DNA from: Parafrankia discariae
GTDB taxonomy: Bacteria > Actinomycetota > Actinomycetes > Frankiales > Frankiaceae
Direction: 5' to 3'
Assembly (NCBI RefSeq): GCF_000373365.1
Contig: NZ_KB891241.1
Location: 1 to 64,000, forward strand
Length of the DNA: 64,000 bases
Part shown: positions 21,092 to 27,815 of the stretch, in pieces
Layout of the letters: every line of letters begins with the position of its first letter
How positions within the stretch are numbered: position 1 is the first letter of the stretch
Program-made: the position numbers and the translations under genes
The notes under the pieces: generated by a model
Told to the model about the DNA's origin: nothing
Seen by the model: only the letters and a program-made list of their open reading frames with translations
Databases searched by the model: none

Positions 21092-21120
21092 TTGACGCGG
21101 TGGCGGATGTCGGGGATCGT
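21092..21120 (+). promoter_or_regulatory. Probable promoter of the ilvBNC leader
   Basis: TTGACG (21092-21097) and GATCGT (21115-21120) are separated by 17 bp. The -10 is weak, but the implied transcript start (about 21127) falls on the ATG of the leader peptide, giving a leaderless leader RNA like that predicted for leuA. Confidence 0.45.
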
Positions 21121-21127
21121 TGTCCGC

Positions 21128-21196
21128 ATGCTGCTTGGCATTCCTGGGCGCACGCATGTGGCGTCCTCGCTTCTCGTACGCTCGGAGCGCGTGTAG
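21128..21196 (+). CDS. ilvB attenuator leader peptide (22 aa)
   Basis: A 22-codon frame opening MLLGIPGRTHVASSLLV and ending at TAG 21194. Eight of 22 residues are branched-chain (four Leu, one Ile, three Val), with codons rare in this GC-rich genome (CTT twice, ATT, GTA). It ends 33 nt before an intrinsic terminator and lies about 310 nt before ilvB. This is the classical layout for ribosome-mediated attenuation by charged Leu/Val/Ile tRNA. It is too short for standard gene calling. A weak GGGGA lies 11 nt upstream; it may instead be translated leaderless. Confidence 0.72.
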   Translation: MLLGIPGRTHVASSLLVRSERV

Positions 21197-21218
21197 TCGG
21201 ACCAGACCGGTCTCCGAC
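21196..21218 (+). promoter_or_regulatory. Leader hairpin (pause or anti-terminator candidate)
   Basis: GTCGGA (21196-21201) pairs with TCCGAC (21213-21218), and the enclosed GACC/GGTC extends the stem. The hairpin begins on the last base of the leader-peptide stop codon and ends 11 nt before the terminator. I could not establish a mutually exclusive pairing with the terminator by eye. Confidence 0.45.
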
Positions 21219-21229
21219 CACCCGCGCCG

Positions 21230-21261
21230 CCCCTCAGTGCCCATGGCACGAGGGGTTTTTT
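21230..21261 (+). terminator. Intrinsic terminator/attenuator before ilvB
   Basis: CCCCTC-A-GTGCC, loop CAT, then GGCAC-GAGGGG followed directly by six T. This is a textbook rho-independent terminator and the only one with a strong T tract of this kind in the window apart from that after the tRNAs. It lies 178 nt before ilvB and downstream of the branched-chain-rich leader peptide, so it is a transcription attenuator, not the end of a gene. Confidence 0.85.
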
Positions 21262-21438
21262 CGTGTCCGGCCCCGACCCCGGCCCAGCGTGACGCCGCTC
21301 CCGGACACGGGCACGGTGGCAACGCCACGCACGACGACCGACCGTCGCCGTCCGTGAACACGTCCGTGAACCACCCGTGAACCGTCCGTCAACGACGTCC
21401 CGTCCGCACCTCGCCGGCCCCGTCAAGGAAGACGACAG

Positions 21439-23235
21439 ATGACCAGAGAGACCAGACAGATCACCGGAGCGCAGTCGCTCGTCCACTCGCTCGAGGCGGT
21501 CGGTGCCGACGTGGTCTTCGGCATTCCGGGCGGGGCGATCCTGCCCGCCTACGATCCGCTGTTCGACTCCACCCGGGTCCGGCACGTGCTCGTCCGGCAC
21601 GAGCAGGGCGCGGGGCACGCCGCCGAGGGGTATGCCCAGGCCACCGGGCGTGTCGGGGTCTGCATGGCGACGTCCGGGCCGGGCGCGACGAACCTCGTGA
21701 CGCCGATCGCGGACGCCTACATGGACTCGGTGCCCATCGTCGCCATCACCGGCCAGGTGCCGAGCGCGGCCATCGGCACCGACGCCTTCCAGGAAGCCGA
21801 CATCTGCGGCATCACCCTGCCGATCACCAAGCACAACTTCCTGGTGCAGTCGGTGGACGACATCCCGCGCACGATCGCCGAGGCGTTCCACATCGCCTCG
21901 ACCGGGCGCCCAGGCCCGGTGCTGGTGGACCTGCCGAAGGACATCCTGCAGGCGGTCACCTCGGTGCTGCCGCACGAGGTCTGGCCGCCCACGCTCGACC
22001 TGCCCGGCTACCGCCCGGTCACCCGGCCGCACGCCAAGCAGATCCGCGAGGCGGCCAAGATGATCAGCGCGGCGCGCCGGCCGGTGCTCTACGTGGGCGG
22101 GGGCGTCCTGAAGGCCCGCGCCGCCGCCGAGCTGCGGGCGCTCGCCGAGCTCACCGGCATCCCGGTGGTCACCACGCTGATGGCCCGCGGCGCGTTCCCC
22201 GACTCGCACCCGCAGCACCTGGGCATGCCCGGGATGCACGGCTCGGTCGCCGCGGTCACCGCGATGCAGAAGGCCGACCTGCTGATCACCCTGGGGGCCA
22301 GGTTCGACGACCGGGTCACCGGCAAGCTGTCGTCGTTCGCGCCCGGCGCGGCCGTCATCCACGCCGACATCGATCCGGCCGAGATCGGCAAGAACCGGAT
22401 CGCCGACGTGCCGATCGTGGGCGACTGCCGGGAGGTCATCGTCGACCTGACCGCGGCGCTGCGCACCGAGGAGCGCCCCGACCTGGAGGGCTGGTGGCGG
22501 TCGCTGGACCGGTGGCGCAGGACCTACCCGCTCGGCTACGACCAGCCCGCCGACGGCTCGCTCGCCCCGCAGCAGGTCATCGAGCGGATCGGCCGGATCT
22601 CCGGCCCGGAGACCGTGTTCGCGGCCGGGGTGGGGCAGCATCAGATGTGGGCCGCCCAGTTCATCTCCTACGAGAACCCCTACACCTGGCTGAACTCCGG
22701 TGGCGCCGGAACGATGGGCTACGCCGTGCCGGCGGCGATGGGGGCCAAGGTCGGCCGCCCGGAGGCCACCGTGTGGGCGATCGACGGTGACGGCTGCTTC
22801 CAGATGACCAACCAGGAGCTCGCCACCTGCGCCCTGGAGGGCATCCCGATCAAGGTCGCGGTCATCAACAACGGGTCGCTGGGCATGGTCCGGCAGTGGC
22901 AGACGCTGTTCTACGACAAGCGCTACTCGAACACCGACCTGGGCACCCACCCGGTGTCGGCGCGCACCGGGGTGACCCGGGTCCCCGACTTCGTGCGCCT
23001 CGCCGAGGCGCTGGGCTGCGTCGGCCTGCGCTGTGAGACGCCCGCGGACGTGGACGCCACGATCGAGAAGGCGATGAGCATCGACGACGCCCCGGTCGTG
23101 GTCGACTTCGTGGTCCACCCCGACGCGATGGTGTGGCCGATGGTGGCCGCGGGCTCCAGCAACGACGAGATCCGGGTCGCCCGCGACATCGCCCCCGACT
23201 TCGACTACTCCGGCGACGCGGAGGTCAACCTGTGA
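21439..23235 (+). CDS. ilvB: Acetolactate synthase large subunit (IlvB)
   Basis: A 598-residue thiamine-diphosphate enzyme. It condenses two pyruvates, or pyruvate and 2-ketobutyrate, in the first common step of valine/leucine and isoleucine synthesis. Catalytic Glu55 is in [14 protein letters not shown]. The ThDP/Mg motif is [17 protein letters not shown] through INNGSLGM (GDG from about residue 450). FAD-domain sequence such as [13 protein letters not shown] is present. AAGGAAG precedes ATG 21439 by about 8 nt. It overlaps ilvN by GTGA and is controlled by the upstream attenuator. Confidence 0.97.
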
Positions 23236-23756
23236 CCCGGCACACCCTCTCGGTGCTCGTCGAGAACAAGCCCGGCGTCCTGGCCCGGGTGTCCGGCCTG
23301 TTCTCCCGGCGCGGCTTCAACATCGAGTCGCTCGCCGTCGGCCCGACCGAGCACGCGGACGTCTCCCGGATGACGATCGTCGTCGCGGTGGAGGACCTGC
23401 CGCTGGAGCAGGTCACCAAGCAGCTCAACAAGCTGGTGAACGTGCTGAAGATCGTGGAGATGGACACCGCCGTCTCCGTGCAGCGCGAGCTGATGCTGGT
23501 CAAGGTGCGGGCCGACCTCGCGGTCCGCTCCCAGGTGCTCGAGACCGTCCAGCTCTTCCGCGCCAAGGTCGTCGACGTCGCCCCCGACGCGGTCACGATC
23601 GAGGCCACCGGTACCCGTGACAAGCTGGACGCGCTGATCCGCATGCTGGAGCCCTTCGGGATCCGCGAGCTGGTCCAGTCCGGCATGGTCGCGCTCGGCC
23701 GCGGATCGCGGTCGATCACCGATCGCAGTCTGCGCGCCGTCGAGCGCTCGGCCTGA
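23232..23756 (+). CDS. ilvN: Acetolactate synthase small subunit (IlvN)
   Basis: A 174-residue regulatory subunit that confers valine feedback inhibition and stimulates IlvB. The N-terminal ACT domain reads [37 protein letters not shown], followed by the second ACT-like domain ([10 protein letters not shown].. [16 protein letters not shown]) and the C-terminal [19 protein letters not shown] 23232 overlaps the ilvB stop by four bases, ensuring coupled translation. Complete and of typical length. Confidence 0.96.
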
Positions 23757-23799: not shown

Positions 23800-24795
<996 letters not shown>

Positions 24796-27758: not shown

Positions 27759-27764
27759 TAAACT
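27759..27764 (+). promoter_or_regulatory. -10 box of the leuA leader transcript
   Basis: TAAACT lies 6-9 nt before GTG 27771 and ATG 27774 of the leader peptide. Transcription is therefore predicted to start at the leader codon itself. No convincing -35 box is visible in the GC-rich repeat upstream. Confidence 0.55.
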
Positions 27765-27773
27765 GCCGTGGTG

Positions 27774-27815
27774 ATGCGTGCGCTGCTTCTTCTTAGGTGC
27801 CGCGGCGGGGCCTGA
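27774..27815 (+). CDS. leuA attenuator leader peptide (13 aa)
   Basis: The frame encodes MRALLLLRCRGGA and stops at TGA 27813. Four consecutive leucine codons are CTG-CTT-CTT-CTT; CTT is rare in this genome. It lies 118 nt before leuA. Similar Leu-run leader peptides precede leuA in other actinobacteria, so this is a leucine-sensing attenuator. A GTG at 27771 would add one residue. No ribosome-binding site is visible, so it is probably read leaderless. Confidence 0.78.
   Translation: MRALLLLRCRGGA

Follow-up and report, generated by a model that had tools for sequence, protein, structure and literature searches.

The window, the whole 64,000-nucleotide stretch of Parafrankia discariae DNA that was analysed, carries on its forward strand three open reading frames that we take to be ilvB, ilvN and ilvC. 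Five congeners encode IlvB proteins that are 92-98% identical to that of the window, and the ORF map together with these congeneric homologues places a short leader ORF upstream of the ilvB orthologue. A promoter precedes the leader, a hairpin (hairpin A) takes in its end, and an intrinsic terminator sits between the leader ORF and the first gene, ilvB (Table 1).

Table 1. Features of the ilvB upstream region and the genes that follow it, in window coordinates.
Feature	Position	Strand	Basis and remarks
-35 element TTGACG	21092..21097	+	Sequence
-10 element GATCGT (nAnnnT form)	21115..21120	+	Sequence
ilvL leader ORF MLLGIPGRTHVASSLLVRSERV, predicted leaderless	21128..21196	+	Sequence; 22 codons, start ATG 21128, stop TAG 21194-21196; start aligned with the GTG/ATG of five congeners, the promoter serving as anchor
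In-frame extension of ~30 nt, borders ambiguous	21143..21172	+	Not present in the 12-codon leaders of congeners (e.g. VLLGILVRSERV), compared by eye
GTA valine codon, proposed sensor	21176..21178	+	Conserved in called leaders; first base 11 nt upstream of the hairpin A foot
Hairpin A; its 5' side takes in the final leader codons and the stop codon	21187..21227	+	Fold; covariation in 46 chosen loci
Intrinsic terminator, 12-pair stem with bulged A21236 and T run	21229..21261	+	Sequence, fold, relatives; stem 21229-21256, six T 21256-21261
ilvB, acetolactate synthase large subunit	21439..23235	+	ORF
ilvN	23232..23756	+	ORF; a longer frame is listed, start picked by eye
ilvC	23800..24795	+	ORF

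The initial annotation had described the leader as rich in codons for Leu, Ile and Val, including the rare CTT, ATT and GTA, and both statements were confirmed. Eight of the 22 codons specify one of these three residues, and in ilvB, ilvN, ilvC, serA and leuA of the window CTT accounts for 0 of 200 Leu codons, ATT for 1 of 114 Ile codons and GTA for 2 of 245 Val codons. High-G+C DNA is rich in open frames, which lends some plausibility to the view that the leader is a chance ORF beside the ordinary terminator of an upstream transcript. Dinucleotide shuffling of the segment 21128-21235 yielded an ORF of 8-30 codons equally rich in Leu, Ile and Val in 8 of 2000 shuffles. For the larger segment 21060-21235, whose best short ORF starts further upstream and has 11 Leu/Ile/Val residues, 4 of 2000 shuffles matched that best ORF. 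From the letters of this locus, we would call the shuffle evidence for the leader alone modest, and it is the comparison with relatives that decides.

In that comparison, an IlvB homologue was found in all 97 searched genomes, and the region upstream of ilvB was examined in 85 of them, giving 30 family loci (L002-L031) and 55 wider loci (L032-L086). Among the named ilvB records listed, from which close ones may be missing, the nearest came from a Frankiales MAG, at 80%. Genomes with weak or partial best hits (G020, G021, G040, G048, G049 and G054) or from genera already represented (G068, G075, G076, G082, G092 and G093) were left out. Conservation of the leader codons and of the terminator, which the initial annotation had put forward as a check, was borne out: both parts were present in all 30 family loci, in 53 of the 55 wider loci (a few of these 53 leaders, e.g. 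L043, L051 and L075, being doubtful picks) and in 52 of 80 loci of a named set. The promoter was also present in 29 of the 30 family loci, the exception (L031) ending at a contig end. By the rules applied, the two wider failures were one locus without a terminator (L033) and one without a leader ORF (L060). Among the 80 named loci, 21 lacked a terminator by rule (2 of them having no upstream sequence) and 7 lacked a leader ORF, counts that include errors of the rule itself, which missed a visible leader in L129 and took the wrong terminator in L098 and L100. Many of the failures fall in Microbacterium and in genera that we take to be its relatives; by the rule used, the attenuator element is not universal. 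A run of at least three Ile, Leu or Val codons occurred in 81 of 83 leader segments compared with 3.8% of shuffles, although the segments were themselves selected by eye or for containing two or more such codons in a row, which favours the observed figure. The conserved leader, promoter spacing and terminator refute a chance ORF, whose probability we regard as negligible.

The leaders of the congeners are VLLGILVRSERV (found twice), VLTGILVRSERV and VLLGILVRLERV, each of 12 codons with a GTG start, and that of the closest genome (L003) is MLLGILVRTILVGSERV, of 17 codons with an ATG start. Relative to its congeners, the window leader has ~10 extra codons between the start and the Leu-Leu-Val (LLV) sensor codons, and its stretch from GTA to terminator is the same as theirs. 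A shorter leader of 12 codons, the length of many relatives, could be read in the window from GTG 21158; this candidate was rejected because the family starts align with ATG 21128 when the promoter is taken as anchor, and GTG 21158 is a possible internal start. The leader of L003 carries a different in-frame insertion, of 5 codons and apparently an ILVR repeat, compared with the ~10 codons of the window, and both leaders keep the last GTA-to-terminator stretch despite their insertions. In another family leader, VRLNILVRGLVVETERA (L027, genome G010), an insertion after ILVR adds two GTA codons, and the usual GTA position is occupied by GTG. The peptide MRTRILVLGKRVG, that of S. lividans IlvL, recurs unchanged in 3 of 55 wider loci (L048, L066 and L079). 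Within its own genome, the leader DNA of the window gave one match.

The promoter elements of the window are separated by a 17 nt spacer, and 7 nt lie between GATCGT and ATG 21128. This geometry predicts a transcription start on, or within one nucleotide of, the leader start codon. The initial annotation had placed transcription start on the leader ATG, with ribosomes loading leaderless, and the leaderless reading is supported both by the geometry at the locus and by the conservation of the spacing across leaders. For the 30 family loci the start codons were set by eye, in part with the promoter visible; for the wider and named sets they were chosen by a rule that took the longest Ile/Leu/Val run and, after that, the shortest ORF. 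On this basis TTGAC began 35-37 nt 5' of the start codon in 70 of the 82 unnamed leaders and in 39 of the 52 named ones. An nAnnnT hexamer ended 6 or 7 nt 5' of the start codon in 78 of 82 unnamed and 44 of 52 named leaders (L031, at a contig end, being omitted from the 82). In relatives, starts of this kind have been reported from RNA ends: the ilvB leaders of S. lividans (IlvL, the ilvBHC attenuator; PMC8079986) and C. diphtheriae (PMC5784534) are both described as leaderless, and C. glutamicum ilvB transcription is given as starting one nucleotide from the leader start, with CUU and GUA as control codons (PMC11857589). Together with the geometry counts, these reports indicate that the leaderless start is common in the actinobacterial ilvB leader class and not peculiar to the window.

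RNA from 21128 to 21264 folds at -64.4 kcal/mol, compared with a shuffle mean of -52.6 kcal/mol (z = -2.9; 1 of 200 shuffles as good). The initial annotation had recognised two hairpins here, one starting on the stop codon and one forming a perfect terminator with six T. The six T are present, but the stem is short of perfect in that A21236 is bulged; likewise, the first hairpin does cover the TAG, but its foot lies at 21187, seven bases upstream of it. Hairpin A and the terminator have no bases in common in the window. A simple consensus scan of the locus listed no terminator, and such a scan listed no sigma-70-type promoter; the actinobacterial form of the -10 element and the bulge probably explain why both were missed. 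No Rfam family matched between 19000 and 26000 at E values up to 1.

GTA occurred in 129 of 135 called leaders (83 of 83 unnamed, 46 of 52 named), whose ORFs had not been chosen for GTA, and made up 95 of 158 leader Val codons, against the 2 of 245 in the five genes of the window named above. The leaders without it (L123, L134, L137, L141, L143 and L151) come from Arthrobacter, Paenarthrobacter, Brevibacterium and uncultured actinobacteria, and three of them (L137, L141 and L143) have GTC where GTA is expected. In 116 of the 135 loci (27 of 30 family, 49 of 53 wider and 40 of 52 named), a helix with a minimum of 5 pairs ended 0-2 nt from the terminator, compared with 1126 of 6750 shuffles. Under a laxer rule of at least 4 pairs, hairpin A was called in 121 of 135 loci, including all 30 family loci, and the gap between it and the terminator, within the 0-2 nt searched, was 0 nt in 71, 1 nt in 45 and 2 nt in 5 of the 121. 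The first base of GTA lay 10-12 nt before the hairpin A foot in 105 of these 121 loci, a count slightly favoured by taking, in leaders with several GTA codons, the one nearest 11 nt; in the rest, GTA was absent (5 loci) or elsewhere (11 loci). The standard deviation of the distance to the hairpin foot was 2.5 nt for GTA overall, compared with 4.9 nt for the stop codon and 7.8 nt for the start codon (2.9, 5.3 and 3.9 nt, respectively, in the wider set). A ribosome that waits at GUA is expected to have its leading edge at about this distance, near the hairpin foot.

Hairpin A also showed covariation in an alignment (A1) of 46 loci, chosen for diversity out of the 135, in which the rows for L034, L084, L095 and L103 start from a different GTA offset. 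In this alignment 92% of hairpin A cells pair, and 5 of 7 pairs have changes on both sides. The covariation score of hairpin A and terminator together was higher than in all 500 shuffles and in each of the slid controls. Because relatedness by itself can lift a score above shuffles in the absence of structure, we place weight on the slid controls and the double changes. Further pair types were at chance (286 of 500 shuffles).

The known actinobacterial ilvB leaders resemble the window locus in several respects. S. lividans IlvL, reported as leaderless, is likewise a short Ile/Leu/Val leader before ilvB, followed by hairpins and a U-rich terminator, although it has 13 codons whereas the window leader has 22, with the inserted stretch between start and sensor codons (PMC8079986). 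The Corynebacterium ilvBNC / ilvB-II motif has a transcription start at or 1 nt from the leader start, as predicted for the window, and likewise a hairpin followed by a terminator (PMC11857589, PMC10272879). M. tuberculosis ilvB1NC is described as having a BCAA-rich uORF in which GUA is marked as regulatory, a terminator and a prematurely ended leader RNA; unlike at the loci studied here, a mutually exclusive antiterminator is proposed there (PMC13236596). The ilvB leaders collected by Seliverstov et al. (2005) are likewise short ORFs with Ile/Val/Leu runs and terminators; that set covers Corynebacterium, Mycobacterium and Streptomyces, and the words 'leaderless' and 'Frankia' are absent from its main text (PMC1262725). 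As leader, promoter spacing and terminator are conserved and have these published relatives, the locus joins the actinobacterial ilvB attenuators, and we consider it very probably a ribosome-mediated transcription attenuator of ilvBNC.

Earlier work lists GUA among the control codons in C. glutamicum and marks it as regulatory in M. tuberculosis, and the class-wide count is the addition made here. In the running text of open-access papers we did not find the GUA-to-hairpin spacing described; parts of it could appear in Figure 3 of Seliverstov et al. or in Extended Data Figure 4 of PMC13236596.

We propose that transcription would start at the leader start codon and that a ribosome would load on the leaderless 5' end of the transcript. 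When charged tRNA-Val(UAC), and to some extent the Leu and Ile tRNAs, were scarce, the ribosome would wait at the LLV codons, GUA occupying the A site. The leading edge would then stand at the hairpin A foot, leaving the hairpin free to form. With plentiful amino acids, the ribosome would move on to the stop codon, within the 5' side of the hairpin, and melt that hairpin, whereupon the terminator would form and RNA polymerase would stop before ilvB. Stalling at GUA would thus leave hairpin A intact, and arrival of the ribosome at the stop codon would disrupt it. For the direction of the response, from starvation to read-through, we rely on pathway logic and on the work in C. glutamicum and M. 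tuberculosis. As for the signal, the genome has 46 matches to the tRNA family, and ARAGORN, run over the loci of these matches, found one tRNA-Val gene each for the anticodons TAC, CAC and GAC; we take charged tRNA-Val(UAC) to be the likely scarce species.

The initial annotation had called the arrangement classical ribosome-mediated attenuation. The conserved leader and terminator uphold this only in part, as the search for a competing antiterminator yielded no such pairing. When 11 of the 30 family loci were folded with the ribosome masked, in three states, the terminator probability was at least 0.96 throughout, so thermodynamics alone gives no switch. For the alignment columns 12-14 outside the hairpin foot, no partner in columns 52-67 exceeded 60% pairing across the 46 loci. 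Over 121 loci, pairing of the hairpin A interior with the 3' terminator arm failed to exceed composition shuffles outside the family, 76 of 100 shuffle means being as high in the wider set and the same number in the named set; it was marginal in the family, where 7 of 100 were as high. Transcripts cut before the 3' terminator arm, from 23 of 30 family loci (L002-L024), had no conserved alternative pairing, and in some of these loci (e.g. L004, L006 and L007) the 5' terminator arm paired with the early leader. Hairpin A is conserved and placed to form on stalling, but folding leaves the terminator intact.

These early-leader pairings could be read as traces of a true antiterminator that folding missed, such as a pseudoknot or a long-range pairing with the leader start, in which case hairpin A would only time or pause the polymerase. 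The same variant of the last step could draw on a GCC trinucleotide that antiterminator and terminator share in C. glutamicum (PMC11857589) and on a loop pairing with the terminator arm proposed for C. ulcerans (PMC10272879), but neither is conserved in the loci studied. The long-range pairings, moreover, vary between genera (23 loci), a long-range partner in the 12-codon leaders would by our reasoning lie under the stalled ribosome, and loop-to-terminator pairing is, as noted, not above chance outside the family. We give this variant a substantial chance, short of regarding it as probable. In place of a missed pairing we favour one of two last steps, with low confidence in choosing between them. 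Hairpin A, 0-1 nt from the terminator base, might sterically block that base in the RNA exit channel, and so exclude the terminator by adjacency; alternatively, it might serve as a pause hairpin and so set the timing of the polymerase. In family loci hairpin A is followed after ~11 nt by the boundary between U and G in GCCCCTCAGTG, which the pause consensus would make a candidate pause site.

Mutational work on related leaders bears on whether the codons act at all. Candidate regulatory codons of the S. coelicolor ilvB leader were replaced, reportedly to no effect, as told in PMC1262725, and in the C. ulcerans motif the change of one valine codon to glutamate left the reporter unchanged (PMC10272879). 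Such results, along with the lack of a thermodynamic antiterminator among our folds, would suit a real premature termination that is governed otherwise, for instance by how fast translation runs in general, how efficiently leaderless initiation occurs, a rate of transcription linked to ppGpp, or a protein, with the codons incidental or tuning speed. The choice of rare codons and the fixed GTA-to-hairpin distance are hard to explain in this way without a codon-specific ribosome position, and we consider control of this kind improbable. Counting along the printed primer, the mutated C. ulcerans codon appears to be the GUG after GUA, so that GUA would have been left intact.

A second leader was observed upstream of leuA (27933), at 27759-27815 of the window, beginning at GTG 27771 or ATG 27774 and reading (V)MRALLLLRCRGGA. 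Three of its codons are CTT. A TAAACT element lies 6 nt upstream of the GTG, and to judge from this spacing the leader is probably leaderless too. It resembles LeuL1 of S. lividans (PMC8079986).

These results add the family of the window to a known regulatory class, and the class gains a measurable rule, with 10-12 nt from GUA to hairpin, 0-1 nt from hairpin to terminator and 6-7 nt from the -10 element to the start. Tentatively, and with more doubt than confidence, the rule may be a rigid ruler that holds across the class, in which a ribosome stalled at the rare GUA would touch the foot of hairpin A and hairpin A would abut the terminator, so that antitermination would be achieved by geometry, the abutting helix preventing closure of the terminator base inside the exit channel, and not by competing pairs, in response mainly to charged tRNA-Val(UAC). 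The rule makes the old puzzle of the effectless codon mutants testable, since it can be asked whether GUA was among the codons changed. If true, antitermination without competing pairs would be a different way of building an attenuator.
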